From Hymenobacter ginkgonis (GTDB lineage Bacteria; Bacteroidota; Bacteroidia; Cytophagales; Hymenobacteraceae), in NCBI RefSeq assembly GCF_009755225.1, contig NZ_WQKZ01000003.1:930001-994000 (forward strand): a stretch of DNA of 64,000 nt. The letters are read 5' to 3'. Below the pieces are notes generated by a model that was given only the letters and a program-made list of their open reading frames with translations, was not told where the DNA came from and ran no database searches. This document shows positions 29,429 to 37,573 of the stretch, in pieces; positions within the stretch are counted from its first letter, which is position 1, and each line of letters starts with the position of its first letter. The translations under genes and the position numbers were made by a program.

Positions 29429-29457
29429 GGTCGTGCCGGGTGGCGCGGCCTTTTTTT
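29429..29457 (+). terminator. Intrinsic terminator of glnN
   Basis: A 9-bp stem (GGTCGTGCC with GGCGCGGCC, including G-T pairs), a 4-base loop and seven T residues lie about 65 bases past the glnN stop. Confidence 0.85.
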
Positions 29458-29536: not shown

Positions 29537-30907
29537 CTAGGCCACGTTTTTCACGGATTTGCCACCCTTTTCTGCCACCCTTTTGGTAGCGGGTTCCCCC
29601 GTGCGGGCCGTGCGCCGGTAGGACTCGACTAGCTCGTGCTCGTTGATGCCCAGGTAACGGTTGAAGTTGGCCTCCGTCTGGTGGCCAGTGGCCATCATCA
29701 CCTGCGAGCGCGGCACGCCCTGGTAAATCTTAAGAGTAGCAAACGTCTTGCGGCCAATGTGCATGCCCAGGGGCAGGCGCGTGAAGCCCAGGAGCTGCTG
29801 CAGCAGGGGCAAGTACTTCCAGGGGTCGCGCACCCAGGGCAAATAAGTATCGAGGCCTAGTGGGGCGTACTTGGCCAGCAGGGCTACGGGCTTAAATACG
29901 TCGTCGTCGAGCAGGGGCACCCGGCAAATAATCTCGGTTTTGCCCGCGCGCATGCGCAAGAGTTCGCCCTGCACGTGGTGGGGCGCCAGCTTATCGGCAT
30001 CCGAGAGGCGCAGACCGGTGTAGGCGCAGAGCAAAAACTTATCGCGGGTGTACTCGAGCCGGTCGCGGTGCTCTTCGTGCGTGAGCGAGCGCCGCTCGTA
30101 GGTCAAGGGGAAGCTTTGGCGCACCAGCTCCAGGGCGGCGGGGCTGCCCAGGTCGAGCGCGGCCACTGCCAGCAGCTCGGGGGCTGTGAGGGCCTCCACG
30201 CCCACGTAGCCGGGCACCAGGCGCAACACGCGCCGGAAACGGGGGTTGACGGGCAAGTCCTGTTCCTCGGCCCAGAATAGGAACTGGCGCAGCTGCTTGA
30301 GAAAGCCGTTGAAGGTGCGCGGCGAGCGGCCGGCTGAGCCGAGCACGTAGTTGCGAAACTGGTCGTAGAAGGCCGGGTCGATGCCGTGCAGACTTAGCCC
30401 GGCGCCGGTGGCTAGCTGGAACCGGCCCAGCTCGTCGCGCAGCTGGTTGTGGGAGTGGATGACGTCGCGGCTCAAGCGCCGGCCCGTGCGCACGGATACC
30501 TTGGTGGCCTCGGCGTCGATCCAGCGCTGGAAGTGCTGCATAAACGTGGGCGCGGCCAGCGAGGGTGGGGGAGGTAGCTCCGCGGCGGGACCGGCCGTGA
30601 GCCGGGCGAAGCGGTATTCGATTTCGGCTTTCATGGCCGGCTTGTCGAGTCGGCGGCCACTCATCTTGGCCTCGTGCGCGGCGCTGGTGGCCGCGTCCGC
30701 ATAGCGGTTGAGCACCGTGTTGATGTCGTCGAGGTAGGTGCCGGGCTTGGCTTTGACCCGCTCGCGTTTGTCATCCCAGTCTTTTGGGAGGCACTTCTGG
30801 CCGGAAGCTAAACGTAAGCGCAGGTTGTCCCAGCAGAAGGTGAGTTGAATGCGGGCCAGACCTTTCTTACTGACCCGCTCAGTGAGGAGCTGGCGGGTTA
30901 CTTCCAT
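29537..30907 (-). CDS. int: Tyrosine recombinase (phage integrase)
   Basis: This 456-residue integrase has an arm-binding N-terminus, a SAM-like core-binding domain (about 120-220) and a catalytic domain with Arg300 (AYTGLRLSD), HxxR at 383-386 (HIGR), His409 and the Tyr418 nucleophile (FNRYLGI). The lineage is the Bacteroidota phage/conjugative-element integrase type with an N-terminal Arm-DNA-bind domain. It faces the host glnN gene, as is usual for an integrase next to attL. It should catalyse both integration and, with a directionality factor, excision. Confidence 0.93.
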   Translation of the reverse strand: MEVTRQLLTERVSKKGLARIQLTFCWDNLRLRLASGQKCLPKDWDDKRERVKAKPGTYLDDINTVLNRYADAATSAAHEAKMSGRRLDKPAMKAEIEYRFARLTAGPAAELPPPPSLAAPTFMQHFQRWIDAEATKVSVRTGRRLSRDVIHSHNQLRDELGRFQLATGAGLSLHGIDPAFYDQFRNYVLGSAGRSPRTFNGFLKQLRQFLFWAEEQDLPVNPRFRRVLRLVPGYVGVEALTAPELLAVAALDLGSPAALELVRQSFPLTYERRSLTHEEHRDRLEYTRDKFLLCAYTGLRLSDADKLAPHHVQGELLRMRAGKTEIICRVPLLDDDVFKPVALLAKYAPLGLDTYLPWVRDPWKYLPLLQQLLGFTRLPLGMHIGRKTFATLKIYQGVPRSQVMMATGHQTEANFNRYLGINEHELVESYRRTARTGEPATKRVAEKGGKSVKNVA

Positions 30908-31238
30908 TGGTTGGTAAGGTAGCTTGGTATCTCGGAAGTAGGAGAATCATGAACCTCTAAGTTGTCTAGCCATGGCAAAGTTACATTGGTTAAGTGGACC
31001 GCTTAGGCGGCTACATCGTGCTGCTAAGAGTGCTAGCGGTTCAAATTAATAAGGAAGTGAAAGTATCTACGAACTTAGGCGAGTCGTTTCCTCAAATAGG
31101 GAGAATTGGGAACTGCGGTCGGTCATAACACAAAGCTACCAAACAGTGGGGAGTACTATACAAAGCAAAGCGCTTCTACCTATGTCAGCAGGAGCGCTTT
31201 GCTATGATAATTTCGGAAAAGTCACGAATTGTAAAGCA
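30908..31238. other. 331-bp intergenic region between integrase and the PHP-ATPase gene
   Basis: No ORF of useful length is seen on either strand. Base composition falls here from GC-rich to AT-rich, marking the edge of the cargo block. The only clear structure is the hairpin at 31165-31202. Integrase arm-binding sites or the integrase promoter may lie in the first 200 bases but cannot be recognised by eye. Confidence 0.6.
31165..31202 (-). terminator. Hairpin terminator after the PHP-ATPase gene
   Basis: A perfect 10-bp inverted repeat (GCAAAGCGCT at 31165-31174, inverted at 31193-31202) lies 37 bases past the stop of the minus-strand gene. The T run on the minus side is short, so it is a moderate call. 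Confidence 0.6.
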
Positions 31239-34100
31239 CTAGGTATTTACAATAGATGAGTATTTATTACTTCTCATTGCAAAAGCAGGCATAGTACCCT
31301 CTAGTACTTTAACGATTCTACCGTTAATGACCGAATTCTCAATAGCCCCGCTTATAATCTCAACCTTATTTCCATCGAATTTATCTATTGATGTGCTTAT
31401 TACCTGTTCAGAATCACATACTACGGCAATATTAGGATTATGAGTAACTATTATTATCTGCCTATTTAATTTTGCTTTTTTAATAAAAGGAACAAGAATC
31501 TCATATACACTCTGGTTATCCAGATTTTCCTCTGGCTGGTCTATGAGCAAAGGAGTATCTGCCTTATCTAGTGTTAGATAAAAAATTAATAGCAAAGCAC
31601 CTTTTTCCCCAGGAGAAAGCTGAGAAATATCCTTGTCAGCTAACATTAGTGCATAGGTGGGCTCTAAATAATCTAACTCGAAAAGAAAATTATAAAAGGC
31701 AGTTTCTTTAGCTATCCGAATTTGACTGTGAATTTCTCGAGGTGCATTATTTAAATCAGGCCGAGTATCAAATTCAAGATTACTGACTGCTGCATCTAAA
31801 AAGGATTGACAGCCTACAAAAGTACTAAAATCACAATTTCTTAAAATGCTTTTGAGCTGTTCTTGTCCAGTTTCTCTACCACAAAAGCTGCCTTTAGCAC
31901 TATGTGTAACGAAGCTAAAGAATTCAGCTTCTAGGTCCTTTTGTTTTAAAGAAACATTCAAGGATATAGGATAATTTTTTAAAATATCCCTGTACTTGTC
32001 CATGAATAACGTTACAGGCTGATAAAGCTCTGAGTATATTTCGGTAAGCTTGAGTTTTATGTTAAAAATTTCTTTTGCCACTTCTAAGCGCTCTGCTCTT
32101 TTCGCATCAATTTCTATTCGCAGTTCTTCTTCAATATATCTTACCTGTTCCTCATAATAGGTAATAGTGCCATCTTGCGTGGCATGACCTTGTATTTTAT
32201 CAATCCTGCTTCGCCAAGCTAGGTAATCAGTTAAGTATTGTTGATAAGCCTTTGATGGAGCATCGAGCAATTGCTCTAATCGGTTCTTTTCTGCTTGAAG
32301 TAGATTTAACTGGGCTAGTAAGCTTGGCTCTCCATGTACATCAAGGGAGGCTTCTATCCCCGTGTTATTTTGCTTCAGCTTAAGTATTTCAGCTTTTATA
32401 GGTTCTTTGTTAGTAGTTATATGAATTAACTGTTCAAAGGACATGGATGTTCCTTGTAAAAGCTTGGCAAAATTCGTCTTGTGGTTTTCATAAAGAGTAA
32501 CAAAGCTATCTACTTCTTGGAGCATTTTTTGTAAATTCCCTAAGATGGTGTTATTTCTCTTTCTGCTTTGTTGTTGTTGAAAAATCTTGTGGTTTATGTC
32601 ACTAATACGATCAATGATTTCCGTTATTTTAGCACTAATAGCAGCTGTTGCTGATGTATCATTGCTAAGAGCTGGGTCTAGTACCTCTTCAGGCATTAGT
32701 GCCTCAACAGCTAATAGTTCTTGTTTCTTGTTAGTCAGTAAATTTCGTAAACTTTGAATGTGTTCGCCAGAAGTCTTTTTTTCGAGCGAGACTATAGTGG
32801 TATTCACATGGTTTAGTTTCAGTTTAATCGTTTCAATATCTCCTAATAAAATTTCTGACTTATTACTAAGTAATTCATCAATAGTAACAGTATTTTGTCT
32901 TAATTCATCCGGAATGTGAGAGAAAATAACCTTTTTCAATTCACTCAGGAATTCAGCCTCTTGTTCATTGCAAAGTTTTTCTAAGAATTGTTGTGGTATG
33001 TATTTGACTCGTTCGATTGAGCTATTGTCAGGTGTATAGTCTAATGGCCTTTCTTGCCCATTGCCGTCGTGCCAAATGATCTCGGCCTTAAAATTGCTCG
33101 CTTTATTGTTTCTTTTAAATCGCGCATTGGTTAGAAAGGAATACTTATCTGTCCCCTTTACATTGCCTAGTAAGGCTACAATATCCAGTAAAGCGCTTTT
33201 CCCATGGCCTTTATTTCCAATAATAGTTACTAATTCAGAATTGATATCGATGCTTATGTTCTCAAACCATTTTTCCTTAGTCTTAGCATCAGAAATTCTG
33301 GAGACTTTAATAGTCTTAATGTATTTAGTGGGATTGTTTTTAACCCGTCTTAGAATCTCTGGTGTTTCACCTACAAATACTCTATCTGTCTCATGGATTA
33401 TTTGCTTTAGTCCCTCGAATGTATTATCAGCTTTAATCCATAAAGGTGCTTTTATAGAATAATTACGTATATCGTGGTTGTCTGAGCAAAGTATTAATGG
33501 TAGTCGCTTGGAAAGGTGAGGAAACACTTTTTGCTCATACATTTCAATATCACTGGTTTGACCAATTTCATAGATATCAATGTGGTCAACCATGTCACGT
33601 TTTTGCGCCATTTTATGACTTAAGGCGCTAGTTATGCTTTCTACACTATTAGATTTTTTTCCTGCATGAATAGATACTAGGCCGCCGAGTTGGTGAATGA
33701 CAGCGCAGATAGGCTCGAATAAGCAAAAGAACCCTTCATCCCCACCCTTGGCTGCAATGTCAGCAGGTGTTATACTAAGCTTCGTCCAGACGTGGTCGAG
33801 ATTACAATCTTCTGGAAAAATACCAATAAAATGAATAGAATCTGATCCACCTTTATCTGAACGGAGTTCAATACCTGGGAAGATGGTAATATCTACTGCT
33901 TTACCTAGCTGCTGTAGCTCTCTAATACGAGCAACATCCATTGTGTGATGATCTGTTATAGCGACAGCAGCTATCTCATTTTTTTGTAGTGTTTGGATAA
34001 TTTCCTCGTTGGTAATACTCTTATTTTTATAATCGAAAGACGCGGGTGTATGAAAATGTAAATCCCATTTTTTCCAGGTGGAACCTTGTGATTTTTTCAT
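31239..34100 (-). CDS. PHP phosphoesterase fused to an SMC/RloC-like ATPase (TrlF-type)
   Basis: This is a 953-residue two-module protein. Residues 10-215 are a PHP metal-dependent phosphoesterase with all motifs: HFH 15-17, DHH 50-52, Glu78, His145 and DNH 207-209. Residues 285-953 are an ABC/SMC-class ATPase with Walker A GNKGHGKS 295-302, a long coiled-coil middle (about 390-730), signature LSPGE 828-832, Walker B LLIDQPEE 851-858 and switch His887. This layout matches proteins named TrlF family AAA-like ATPase and resembles the nuclease-ATPase defence protein RloC. I infer a nucleic-acid-cleaving defence or exclusion role. The gene is AT-rich, unlike the rest of the prophage. Confidence 0.82.
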   Translation of the reverse strand: MKKSQGSTWKKWDLHFHTPASFDYKNKSITNEEIIQTLQKNEIAAVAITDHHTMDVARIRELQQLGKAVDITIFPGIELRSDKGGSDSIHFIGIFPEDCNLDHVWTKLSITPADIAAKGGDEGFFCLFEPICAVIHQLGGLVSIHAGKKSNSVESITSALSHKMAQKRDMVDHIDIYEIGQTSDIEMYEQKVFPHLSKRLPLILCSDNHDIRNYSIKAPLWIKADNTFEGLKQIIHETDRVFVGETPEILRRVKNNPTKYIKTIKVSRISDAKTKEKWFENISIDINSELVTIIGNKGHGKSALLDIVALLGNVKGTDKYSFLTNARFKRNNKASNFKAEIIWHDGNGQERPLDYTPDNSSIERVKYIPQQFLEKLCNEQEAEFLSELKKVIFSHIPDELRQNTVTIDELLSNKSEILLGDIETIKLKLNHVNTTIVSLEKKTSGEHIQSLRNLLTNKKQELLAVEALMPEEVLDPALSNDTSATAAISAKITEIIDRISDINHKIFQQQQSRKRNNTILGNLQKMLQEVDSFVTLYENHKTNFAKLLQGTSMSFEQLIHITTNKEPIKAEILKLKQNNTGIEASLDVHGEPSLLAQLNLLQAEKNRLEQLLDAPSKAYQQYLTDYLAWRSRIDKIQGHATQDGTITYYEEQVRYIEEELRIEIDAKRAERLEVAKEIFNIKLKLTEIYSELYQPVTLFMDKYRDILKNYPISLNVSLKQKDLEAEFFSFVTHSAKGSFCGRETGQEQLKSILRNCDFSTFVGCQSFLDAAVSNLEFDTRPDLNNAPREIHSQIRIAKETAFYNFLFELDYLEPTYALMLADKDISQLSPGEKGALLLIFYLTLDKADTPLLIDQPEENLDNQSVYEILVPFIKKAKLNRQIIIVTHNPNIAVVCDSEQVISTSIDKFDGNKVEIISGAIENSVINGRIVKVLEGTMPAFAMRSNKYSSIVNT

Positions 34101-34151
34101 TATAGTTAATGCAGAATGGGTTCAAGAAAGGTGTTTTGTAAGACGAGAATA

Positions 34152-34173
34152 CTATTTGTGTTTTTGCAAATAG
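34152..34173. promoter_or_regulatory. Inverted repeat in the divergent region before the PHP-ATPase gene
   Basis: CTATTTG at 34152-34158 is exactly inverted as CAAATAG at 34167-34173. It lies between the PHP-ATPase gene and the divergent small gene and is a possible operator. Confidence 0.35.
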
Positions 34174-34215
34174 CTGGTAAACAATGATATATTAAGTCAA
34201 TTTTCTTTGAAGGAC

Positions 34216-34398
34216 ATGTCCAATGACAAGCAACAAGTAGCCGCGACTATTAAGCGCCTAGTGGAGGAATTACAACTAGAACTGGTTAAAGCTCAGCAAG
34301 CTGGCTTGATAGTAAAGCTTACCCCTCCGTGCACCTACTCCCTAGACGACAGGGCAGGGGAGGTGCATGTGGAAGTGTGGGAAAAGGTTATTTACTGA
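34216..34398 (+). CDS. Small hypothetical protein in the cargo block
   Basis: This 60-residue protein opens with an ATG at 34216; a TTG nine bases upstream is less likely. An amphipathic helix spans residues 7-30 (ATIKRLVEELQLELVKAQQAG) and a short beta-rich tail follows. I do not recognise a family. It is divergent from the PHP-ATPase gene and shares its promoter region, so it might be regulatory or an antitoxin-like partner, but nothing in the sequence proves this. Its 3' end overlaps the convergent 109-residue gene by 11 bases. Confidence 0.5.
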   Translation: MSNDKQQVAATIKRLVEELQLELVKAQQAGLIVKLTPPCTYSLDDRAGEVHVEVWEKVIY

Positions 34399-34717
34399 GG
34401 CTATTGACCGTATGCTTAATTTGCCTAACATCCTTTATCAACTCATCTTGGTCACGTCCTATGATAAGCTCGTTGCGAATGCTCACGCCCATATCATCTT
34501 GCAACGTTTCGAGCCTTGATATGACCAGCCGTACATTGTGGTCGACGACGTCAAGATTTTTGAGCGTCTTTTTCAGCATGCTTCTTAGGTCATCGTATTC
34601 CTCCTTGCTCATGACCCAGGCTGGCACCTCCTCAGTTTGTTCTGGTGCTACCGACTCCGGTGAACTTGGGACTTCATCGCTAGAATGAGAACTGCGAAAT
34701 ATAGAAAACAGAGACAT
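34388..34717 (-). CDS. Hypothetical coiled-coil protein
   Basis: This 109-residue protein has an acidic, Ser/Glu/Pro-rich N-terminus (about 10-32) followed by a predicted coiled coil from residue 38 to the end (EEYDDLRSMLKKTLKNLD and similar). No enzyme motif or membrane segment is visible and I do not recognise the family. It belongs to the AT-rich cargo block and is convergent with the small upstream gene. Confidence 0.5.
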   Translation of the reverse strand: MSLFSIFRSSHSSDEVPSSPESVAPEQTEEVPAWVMSKEEYDDLRSMLKKTLKNLDVVDHNVRLVISRLETLQDDMGVSIRNELIIGRDQDELIKDVRQIKHTVNSLSK

Positions 34718-34843
34718 TTATAAGACGGAAAAATGATTGGAAGGGACAATTAGCAAAAGTGCGAGTGAATATACAGTACAGTACTAAGTAAAGATTCTTT
34801 ACTTATTCAATTAGCTATTTTTTGCTGTTTAGTTTCATAACAA

Positions 34844-34875
34844 AAAGGCCCTTGCTGATATCAGCAAAGGCCTTT
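34844..34875 (-). terminator. Hairpin terminator after the MtlR-like gene
   Basis: AAAGGCC and TTGCTGA are each inverted to the right of a central TA, making a long stem with a one-base bulge and T residues on the minus strand. It lies about 50 bases past the stop of the minus-strand gene. Confidence 0.7.
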
Positions 34876-34923
34876 AGCTTGGGAAGTTAGCCCTATTGGT
34901 TCTCGTTGGCAGGAGCAAAGAAA

Positions 34924-35618
34924 TTAGCAGTGTGGCGAGACAATATATCTGCTGCAGCAATAACATCTCTGGGGCAAGCCGTTGCCGACCGAAGAGTCTT
35001 GAGCATTCAGAAATAGCCTACTTGTCATGTGAACGATGTTTTGGTACTGCGCCTTTCCCTCTGGGCTATCTTTAAATTTGCGTAACTCTTCAATGAGAGT
35101 GCTGAGTGTAGGGTTTCCCTCAAGCGCAAGGGCTTCGGCAATTGTCTCTTGGGTTGACTTTGGAAGAGTTGGCCGCTTGATATCTGTTCTGCGAAGTAGA
35201 AGGCGCGAGGCAACGTTGCGGGCCGATTCGATAAAGCTGCGCCGCACGGCGACTGAGCTACGATTAGGTAGCGGTTCGAGAAACAGGATGCTAAGTTCTT
35301 CTACTTGGTCGGCAGTGGTTGTGGAGTCAAATAGTACATCAAAGCCCCGCAGACCGAGCGCTTGAGCTAGGAGTAGGCGAGCGTGAAGGGTGCCAGCTGG
35401 TTGCCCATGCTTCAATATGCCAGCAGCTAACGTGTCGGATACGCAGGCCCCAGTGATGAGTATGCCTAATATCTCGTCTAGGTATGCACCGAGAATGAGA
35501 ATCACTCCCCGGTCTGACTCTAATTCAACTAATTCAGTGATGCGCTAAGTAGTAATAAGCGCTCTTCCTCTTTCGATCGCTCTTTAGGATTAGACTGTTT
35601 TTGTGACGAAGTAGCCAT
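34924..35618 (-). pseudogene. MtlR-like protein gene interrupted by a frameshift
   Basis: A first reading frame starts at ATG 35618 (MATSSQKQSN..., 29 residues) and stops at 35529. A second frame, open from about 35546 to 34924, continues with ITELVELESDRGVILILGAYLDEILG. The joined product of about 230 residues would carry an MtlR-like/DUF-type helical domain (DRGVILILGAYLDEIL and ARLLLAQALGLR are the recognisable blocks). A single missing base near 35535-35546 would restore one frame. Either the gene is broken, or the downstream part is translated alone from the GTG at 35505, or frameshifting occurs. The family match is weak. Confidence 0.55.
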
Positions 35619-35670
35619 GTATCAGGACTAATATAGGCGAACGGAGGAGGTGCTAACTGATAAAGCAATA

Positions 35671-36702
35671 CTAAGACTTTTTTATATCAGGGCTAGTAGG
35701 ATATGAGCAGAGTAGACTAAGCATTTTTGGTAGATACCATTCACGGCAAATCTCCTCATACATGCTTGCGAGATTCGTCAAGTGGTGCCAAGTCATAAGT
35801 ATCTCACCAAAAAGGACCTCAGCTTTTTCATCAGGCTTTGGGTGCAACAGATTGCTTTTTAATGCAAGTAACTCCGCCTTGCTATCAGCCAATGGTTTCC
35901 AAGCAGAATACTCCCAAATATCCAAATACTCAATTTGATTTATAAACAGTAGCAGTATATCATCTATCGTTTTTCCATCTATTGTAGATCCATCAGTGTC
36001 AGCTCTTGCGTGCTCTAGTTGCTCCCTGTATGTGTGAACAGGCCACGTTTTGAATTGGAATATGTGTGCAATCTCATTCTTCTGATAGAAGAACTTAGAA
36101 AAAGCGGCTAGCAGCTTTGCTCGTTTGCCATAAAATCCAAAGGCTGCTTGGGTGACTTCTTTGTCTTTTAGATTATTATAAGCTGGGATAGTAACTGTTA
36201 CTGAGGCTTGTTTCTCGTAATCAGGAGTCTTGGGTAAGAGGAGTTTATCAATGTAATCGTTCATGCAAATGAAGTAGGCATCTTCAGTTGTAATGTTGAC
36301 TACAAGTAGTAAGACTGATACACTTGCTCCCCAAGTCTGGATAGTATAGATGGAGTTTGTGTCAAAAGGATATTTTATCACAGGTATTTCTATGTGCTCA
36401 GACCTGTTTTCTCTCCATTCTGCTTTTGCCACATTGCCAACTGGATATATTTTTTCTGGCGTTTCCTCTAAATCAGTGACTGATTTGACTTGCACATAGA
36501 TAAACTCTCCCAACGTCTCGGAATATCGCTCATCTATTTTGTCAAATAGTTCAATAACTAAGTCTATCCCATAATCGGGCTGGTTAAATGGCCTAATGAC
36601 CCACTCTTTAGGGAGATGCTTTTTGATTACATCATAAGAGCCATCCTCCATAATATGTTGGATGACACGTCTTTTCCTCCGTGCCTTGTAAGAATCATCC
36701 AT
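35671..36702 (-). CDS. DUF4365-type protein with a PD-(D/E)xK-like nuclease core
   Basis: This is a 343-residue protein. Its N-terminal domain carries the pattern PDYGIDLVIE (Asp43, Asp47, Glu51) followed by FIYVQVKSV (Gln71, Lys73), the arrangement of restriction-endonuclease-like DUF4365 domains. The C-terminal 200 residues are helical and unrecognised. DUF4365 proteins often occur in defence islands; a nuclease activity is inferred, not shown. It ends 3 bases from the repressor gene start side on the same strand, so both may be transcribed from the repressor promoter and expressed during lysogeny. Confidence 0.65.
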   Translation of the reverse strand: MDDSYKARRKRRVIQHIMEDGSYDVIKKHLPKEWVIRPFNQPDYGIDLVIELFDKIDERYSETLGEFIYVQVKSVTDLEETPEKIYPVGNVAKAEWRENRSEHIEIPVIKYPFDTNSIYTIQTWGASVSVLLLVVNITTEDAYFICMNDYIDKLLLPKTPDYEKQASVTVTIPAYNNLKDKEVTQAAFGFYGKRAKLLAAFSKFFYQKNEIAHIFQFKTWPVHTYREQLEHARADTDGSTIDGKTIDDILLLFINQIEYLDIWEYSAWKPLADSKAELLALKSNLLHPKPDEKAEVLFGEILMTWHHLTNLASMYEEICREWYLPKMLSLLCSYPTSPDIKKS

Positions 36703-36705
36703 TAG

Positions 36706-37194
36706 TTAGGTGTTAGGTCGATTAAACGCAGCCTTAAGCAGATCAATAGTCTCCTCCTTCGAGGCAATAAGCGCATCCTTCGTAGCTAGTTGGGCTTGCA
36801 GATGCTCTACCTGTTGCTGGGTCTTATCGAGTTGCGCTTTTAAGATGTCGCGCTCCTTCTCGCAGTCGGAGAGGCCATCGTTTTTCTGGATAGCCTTGCC
36901 GTTTTTGCCGCTCGCTACATTATTTCTGTCCCCAGAAATATTAGTCTGAGTCACCGAGCCTTCATCATCGCTTATAAAAGGCTCTTCTCTACCTGTGATG
37001 AGCCATACCAGATTCACCTGCCTGAAAGTGTTGGAAATCTTTTCTAATACTTCTGAGCTAGGTTTAGCTGTTCGGTCGATATAATTACGAACTGTTGTTT
37101 CGCTCAATTCTAGGGCACGTGCAAAGCTGCCCGCCTTCATTCCTAGTTCTTTAAGCAGAAAATTTAGGCGCTGATTAATAGTCGTTTCCGACAT
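36706..37194 (-). CDS. CI-type phage repressor with HTH and coiled coil
   Basis: This 162-residue protein has an N-terminal XRE helix-turn-helix (about 6-66, containing GSFARALELSETTVRNYID and an LVWLITGREEPF end). A linker with an NISGDRNN motif and a C-terminal coiled coil (about 100-155) follow. It lacks a LexA-type S24 protease domain, so induction is not by simple self-cleavage. It is divergent from the early operon, and repeated operators lie immediately upstream of its start. It is the best candidate for the lysogeny repressor. Confidence 0.75.
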   Translation of the reverse strand: MSETTINQRLNFLLKELGMKAGSFARALELSETTVRNYIDRTAKPSSEVLEKISNTFRQVNLVWLITGREEPFISDDEGSVTQTNISGDRNNVASGKNGKAIQKNDGLSDCEKERDILKAQLDKTQQQVEHLQAQLATKDALIASKEETIDLLKAAFNRPNT

Positions 37195-37330: not shown

Positions 37331-37573
37331 ATGACCGAGCGCCAGAAGTACCTGCGGTTGCTGTCCATTGTCATCGAGGACCTACCCACTAGCGCCATCG
37401 ACGCGCTGATTCGAGACGACTACAAGTCGTCAGCCTCGATGCTCAACAACGTGCGCATTGGGCGCTCGCATCACCTGGGGCACCTGGTGGCGCTGGTGCG
37501 CGTGGGTCTGCCCAAGTACCAGATTCCGGCCGAGCTGCTGCCGGCTCCCACGCCCGCCCCGCTGCTGGCGTGA
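37331..37573 (+). CDS. First early gene, small hypothetical protein
   Basis: This 80-residue protein has a helical, mildly basic N-terminal part (residues 5-60, including ALIRDDYKSSASMLNNVRIGRSHHLGHLVALV) that could be a small DNA-binding fold, placed where a Cro-like protein would be expected. I do not recognise a family. Its stop overlaps the next start as TGATG, which indicates translational coupling. Confidence 0.55.
   Translation: MTERQKYLRLLSIVIEDLPTSAIDALIRDDYKSSASMLNNVRIGRSHHLGHLVALVRVGLPKYQIPAELLPAPTPAPLLA

Follow-up and report, generated by a model that had tools for sequence, protein, structure and literature searches.

We analysed a stretch of 64,000 nucleotides from the genome of Hymenobacter ginkgonis (RefSeq assembly GCF_009755225.1, contig NZ_WQKZ01000003.1, positions 930,001 to 994,000), hereafter the window, whose own positions are used throughout. 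Between the integrase and repressor genes of an element that we read as a prophage, the window harbors an AT-rich block of cargo genes. The largest of these encodes a TrlF-family protein of 953 residues that combines a PHP domain with an SMC-like ATPase, and another encodes a DUF4365 protein. The block is probably the current filling of a variable slot, in which TrlF and the DUF4365 protein would be two separate single-gene systems acting mainly in phage exclusion. The locus comprises the following features.

29433 to 29456, forward strand: left attachment core of 24 bp, an exact repeat, 69 bp beyond the glnN stop codon.
29537 to 30907, reverse strand: tyrosine integrase, with a Pfam Arm-DNA-bind_5 match at its cut-off and a weaker Phage_integrase match.
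31239 to 34100, reverse strand: TrlF, 953 residues, with a PHP domain (about 7 to 246) and an SMC-like head and coiled coil (about 259 to 937), assigned from family model NF045780, motifs, a predicted model and fold matches.
34152 to 34173, no strand: possible operator upstream of TrlF, an inverted repeat CTATTTG-N8-CAAATAG (7-bp arms, 8-base loop) seen by eye.
34216 to 34398, forward strand: open reading frame (ORF) of 60 residues from its ATG, divergent from TrlF; 63 residues if started at the TTG at 34207.
34388 to 34717, reverse strand: ORF of 109 residues, convergent with the 60-residue ORF; one homologue among 119 other genomes of the genus.
34924 to 35505, reverse strand: damaged ORF, left over from an unnamed family that is still intact in sister loci L087, L088 and L103.
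35671 to 36702, reverse strand: DUF4365 protein of 343 residues, a presumed PD-(D/E)xK nuclease, from a Pfam match.
36706 to 37194, reverse strand: Cro/C1-type repressor (Pfam HTH_3), whose homologues occur in 17 of the 27 sister loci.
37331 to 37573, forward strand: gene for 80 residues, the first beyond the switch, with homologues beside the repressor in many sister loci.

The six lowest steps of the window in guanine-plus-cytosine (GC) content, taken at 1 kb, are exactly those from 31001 to 37000 (0.356 to 0.459; the next lowest is 0.519). The interval between integrase and repressor (30908 to 36705; 5,798 bp) has a GC content of 0.398, or 39.8%, against about 65% on both sides (0.646 in the integrase and 0.659 in the 3 kb past the repressor). 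This bears out the AT-rich block described in an initial annotation of this DNA, whose gene list for the block was also correct when the ORFs were checked.

We compared the locus with 27 loci that carry a sister integrase. A homologue of the repressor is present in 17 of them, and their integrase-repressor intervals were set beside that of the window (18 intervals in total). These intervals measure 1.7 to 9.7 kb with GC contents of 0.40 to 0.58; in every case, the integrase and the DNA beyond the repressor of the same locus are richer in GC. Their cargo differs, the commonest protein family being found in only 4 of the 18. In 12 of the 17 sister intervals, 30 ORFs were scanned with PADLOC and some also with Pfam, which revealed defence-type matches in 7 of the 12, or in 4 of the 12 if lone methyltransferases are left aside. 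The Gabija proteins GajA and GajB are encoded in L078, the Lamassu proteins LmuA and LmuB in L094, and a PD-Lambda-2-like pair, PD-Lambda-2_C and PDC-S59, in L101, while the slots of L077, L079 and L092 hold type II methyltransferase genes. The genome of the window contains a second such prophage region, L087 (G000:C22:1061038-1062438 and on), which carries a 1106-residue Mrr_cat-NACHT protein together with an intact copy of the family of the broken ORF. Thus, the same position, varying cargo and known defence genes in sister prophages are all found at this interval, which supports the earlier placement of the cargo in a defence slot beside the lysogeny switch. A report on K139-like prophages of Vibrionaceae describes a cI-integrase hotspot whose exchangeable cargo includes restriction and other defence systems (PMC9122126); the position and the exchange of cargo are the same as here, but the phage family and the host group differ.

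The place directly behind the repressor, occupied by the DUF4365 gene in the window, is taken by a RelA/SpoT-domain protein in L077 and L078. A homologous family is common to three slots (L077:10448-11500, L078:9673-10734 and L096:11749-12831), with the RelA/SpoT domain in the L077 and L078 copies. Because of this domain and of the place behind the repressor, this family may be a growth-arrest exclusion gene. Separately, L084:6457-8502 and L091:8239-10299 encode homologous proteins of 681 and 686 residues. PADLOC matched neither of them, and Pfam did not match the L084 copy.

A second, exact copy of the 24-bp core lies outside the window, at G000:C22:1001715-1001738, 42,282 bp from the left copy. 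By eye, the core at 29433 looks like a terminator-like stem with a T-run. Four of the ten ORFs scanned between the two copies have PHROGs matches: a head protease (5e-35), a portal protein (2e-7), a terminase (2e-6) and, weakly, a head decoration protein (6e-5). Homologues of the integrase occur in 29 of 120 genomes of the genus, its own counted. The glnN gene adjoins the integrase in 8 of the 27 sister loci, four of which (L078, L084, L089 and L091) are among the 17 with a repressor, and was not found in the short stretch beyond the integrase in the remaining 19. The core itself, allowing up to two mismatches, is present in 19 of the 120 genomes: twice, at a spacing of 22.8 to 42.3 kb, in G000, G027, G054 and G106, as two copies 4.4 kb apart in G082, as three copies on separate contigs in G108, and singly in 13. 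Because the repeats enclose an integrase, a repressor and matches to phage structural genes, and because glnN and the core recur in relatives, we read the element as a 42.3-kb prophage beside glnN, belonging to a family some of whose members use the site at glnN. In G118, a decayed prophage remnant beside glnN (L074:8736-11287) consists of a helix-turn-helix gene, a pair resembling the 109- and 60-residue ORFs, and an integrase fragment.

The 953-residue ORF has no internal in-frame stop. Its product scores 631.5 bits with the TrlF family model NF045780 (cut-off 350), residues 6 to 947 aligning with positions 2 to 943 of 944. In an alignment of 52 TrlF sequences, that of the window included, the PHP residues H15, H17, D50, E78, D207 and H209 never vary, and little or no variation is seen in the Walker A, Q-loop, signature and Walker B motifs. 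An AlphaFold2 model was obtained with a predicted local distance difference test score (pLDDT) of 87.7 and a predicted template modelling score of 0.69. Its PHP domain has its best match in the PHP phosphoesterase TM0559 (Z 17.5, root-mean-square deviation (rmsd) 2.8, 192 aligned), and is also near endonuclease Q (Z 17.2, rmsd 3.4, 218 aligned) and RNase AM (Z 15.3, rmsd 3.2, 197 aligned). Residues 259 to 937 match the SMC heads 4i99 (Z 15.3, rmsd 4.2, 262 aligned) and 5h68 (Z 14.9, rmsd 4.0, 267 aligned). Foldseek also returned Rad50, JetABC, Lamassu and PARIS AriA chains, with low whole-chain TM-scores. A sequence search of solved structures returned no chain that matched over both the PHP and the ATPase parts. 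The family model, the alignment and the predicted model thus confirm the PHP and SMC-like ATPase with intact motifs that had been noticed at first, and the protein is a full-length member of the TrlF family.

Ppl is an anti-phage protein with a PHP domain at one end and an ATPase at the other end of a single chain. The window protein matches the Ppl model (NF042955) partially, in the C-terminal ATPase, with 122.4 bits, but is far under the cut-off of 1000 and belongs to a separate family. Similarly, it matches the Spaf_1101 family AAA-like ATPase (NF045781) with 166 bits, the best stretch being C-terminal, but remains under the cut-off of 475. RloC is not among the 17 PADLOC families listed, a result to be read with the presence of an RloC model in PADLOC unchecked.

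The initial annotation offered the block as either an undescribed multi-gene module or a pair of independent ones. Its genes are adjacent and all AT-rich, which would suit a single defence module in which TrlF, the small proteins and the DUF4365 protein act jointly. We surveyed the neighbours of TrlF in 84 other loci (81 distinct), with flanks of up to 8 kb and many contigs shorter than that. No homologue of the 63-residue, 109-residue, broken or DUF4365 proteins was found at E 0.01, and the PHP-ATPase co-occurs with the 60- and 109-residue proteins, an association that the initial annotation had suggested checking, in none of the 84 loci. Such a lack of co-occurrence is part of what that annotation named as counting against its proposal. 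The only hits of block or switch proteins are one weak helix-turn-helix match to the repressor (E 0.008) and integrase-like matches of 21 to 26% identity. None of the other block genes has a homologue in the 19-kb locus of the closest TrlF (L029, 57% identity). Conversely, the 60- and 109-residue pair in G118 and the DUF4365 gene in G019 and G049 recur without TrlF. Moreover, the 60-residue gene lies on the opposite strand, and GC content differs by piece (0.36 in TrlF, 0.40 in DUF4365 and 0.51 in the broken ORF). The undescribed multi-gene module is therefore rejected, joint action of the whole block being highly improbable. The parts of the block are independent, and it is this half of the initial proposal that stands.

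The 343-residue protein matches Pfam DUF4365 with 58.3 bits (cut-off 24.3), and its gene starts three bases past the repressor stop codon, in agreement with the position directly downstream of the repressor given at first. With so short a gap, the protein is probably produced with the repressor whenever the prophage is dormant, presumably from a shared transcript. Copies that are 74 to 76% identical occur in G019 and G049. At E 1e-20, only one of 395 genomes of the class, its own, has the gene. Among 72,556 plasmid records, 2 carry it, from Pedobacter and Gluconobacter. TrlF is not listed within 5 kb on each side of DUF4365 in either plasmid. In the Gluconobacter plasmid, a short PHP-domain gene lies about 3.5 kb from DUF4365. 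The protein matched none of the solved chains (best E 0.12), and its predicted model, built from three sequences only, has a pLDDT of 40.9. The DUF4365 domain recalls SPARDA, in which a short Argonaute is reported to be associated with DUF4365-APAZ (PMC10810196), but the homologues of the window protein stand in other gene surroundings. No Pfam match to Argonaute was found among ten ORFs of the 29.5 to 38.4 kb region.

Homologues of the 60- and 109-residue ORFs are found together in one of the 119 other genomes of the genus, G118, where they are convergent as in the window and lie near a decayed integrase and glnN. The 109-residue protein has no match on plasmids at E 0.01. The gene first described as damaged is indeed so: compared with its three intact homologues of 271 to 299 residues in L087, L088 and L103, which keep an RNKAAHF motif, it is without the N-terminal part and about 26 internal residues that include this motif. 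The motif might point to an MltR/HEPN-like identity. Neither the ORF nor its three intact sisters has a Pfam match, and assignment to a named family was abandoned. One clearly broken ORF and small ORFs nearly without homologues would fit cargo that is decaying and non-functional. However, TrlF and DUF4365 are full length and stop-free, with conserved motifs or close homologues, and decay of the whole cargo is very unlikely.

TrlF itself is sporadic, being present in 9 of the 120 genomes of the genus and 16 of the 395 of the class, its own counted in both. Some match is found in 7 of 50,697 phage records, none with 80% cover in one place, and viral contigs yield nine relatives at 24 to 38%. On plasmids, 1,125 records have some match and nine reach 80% cover, with a best identity of 35%. 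Type I or Mod-type restriction genes or DUF1016 stand beside 19 of the 84 TrlF loci (18 of the 81 distinct ones) and in none of 40 control regions, the families counted having been chosen from the test loci themselves. For this reason, a separate, unpicked PADLOC scan of nearest neighbours was performed, which took in 115 of the 132 neighbour proteins and, as a control, 115 of the 116 ORFs available; the near-duplicate loci L131, L134, L136 and L184 and two proteins of L151 were left out of the neighbour set. At 1e-20, the neighbour proteins matched 245 models and the control ORFs 7, a contrast that these counts overstate, since a single protein scores with many models that are related to each other. 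Type III methyltransferases (six proteins) and type I specificity subunits (five) are the commonest among the matches listed. The slot and the restriction-rich neighbourhood thus favour a defence role, and we infer that TrlF is a defence gene, although this is unproven.

Several observations weigh against this interpretation. The control regions are all from Bacteroidota, whereas the TrlF loci come from many phyla. PADLOC gave no strong defence match in 5 of the 12 scanned slots (L084, L091, L096, L102 and L103; QueC reached 59 bits in L102), and the scan covered 12 of the 17 sister intervals, the remaining five lying outside it. The methyltransferases in the slots may be the phage's own, and TrlF is absent from all other sister loci (L074 to L107). 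In the Photorhabdus trl operon, the reported phenotype is temperature restriction, and the selected mutations are reported to lie in trlG, with none in trlF (PMC7554251). Finally, an AlbA_2-like single-linkage cluster is found near TrlF in 9 of the 84 loci.

The last two points would fit a TrlF ATPase that serves in stress or growth control, as at the temperature restriction locus, with a place in a prophage unrelated to phage exclusion. The window protein matches the TrlF family model NF045780 over its full length and has the PHP and ATPase layout of that family, whose name is the same as that of trlF in the Photorhabdus locus. TrlG is reported to have an AlbA_2 and HATPase_c_4 layout (PMC7554251), and the L155 member of the AlbA_2-like cluster, scanned with Pfam, has this layout. 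In two Bacteroidales metagenome-assembled genomes (L155:12-1367 and L170), a TrlG-type gene stands directly upstream of TrlF, the Pfam layout being that of L155; trlF-trlG pairs therefore reach this TrlF subfamily. The window gene differs in having no adjacent trlG-type gene and in its location in a prophage cargo slot: at E 1e-3, the TrlG-like protein of L155 matched no ORF of at least 60 residues in the window block or in any of the 17 sister intervals. The restriction-rich neighbourhoods of TrlF and the defence-type cargo of sister slots also argue against a role in growth control alone, which we regard as unlikely. Since a growth-arrest protein can double as an abortive-infection protein, such a role overlaps with one in defence. 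No other printed phenotype for a trlF operon was found among the matches listed. Literature that links phage defence to the PHP domain, to SMC, to Ppl or to histidinol phosphatase yielded nothing on TrlF, the phrases "TrlF family", "TrlF-like" and "TrlF protein" were not found, and a search on Hymenobacter prophage defence returned nothing on the subject.

If the block is the filling of a variable exclusion slot, as we favour, the slot would take independently acquired, mostly self-sufficient genes able to act during phage dormancy, and its cargo would work mainly by excluding other phages. By analogy with SMC and Rad50 proteins, the head and coiled coil of TrlF may bind or sense DNA in an ATP-dependent manner, and the DNA-engaged head may gate the N-terminal metal-dependent PHP hydrolase. 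This would lead either to an attack on the nucleic acid of the phage or to the cell being shut down. The substrate of the PHP site could be phage DNA, RNA or nucleotides, the closest solved relatives including a DNA endonuclease and an RNase. TrlF would act alone, the DUF4365 protein would be a nuclease that works independently and is transcribed together with the repressor, and the 60- and 109-residue pair and the broken ORF would be other or leftover cargo and not subunits. A wider proposal, which we put forward tentatively, is that TrlF might be a one-protein anti-phage machine, made of an SMC-type sensor and its own PHP nuclease, and that those prophages of the genus which have this integrase and repressor in common might shuttle such systems through one exchangeable slot. 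The repressor-proximal position, held by DUF4365 here and by RelA/SpoT-domain proteins in two sisters, might then be expressed from the transcript of the repressor, which would keep exclusion genes switched on precisely during dormancy.

The block is thus a new occupant of an already known type of slot and carries a known protein family of untested function. It links a widespread ATPase family, for which the only printed phenotype found is a heat-growth effect of its operon, to a defence-type slot and to restriction-rich neighbourhoods. The role of TrlF becomes testable with a single gene, and more defence genes may be sought in the integrase-repressor interval of these prophages, whose hosts belong to a group of bacteria that has been little studied.

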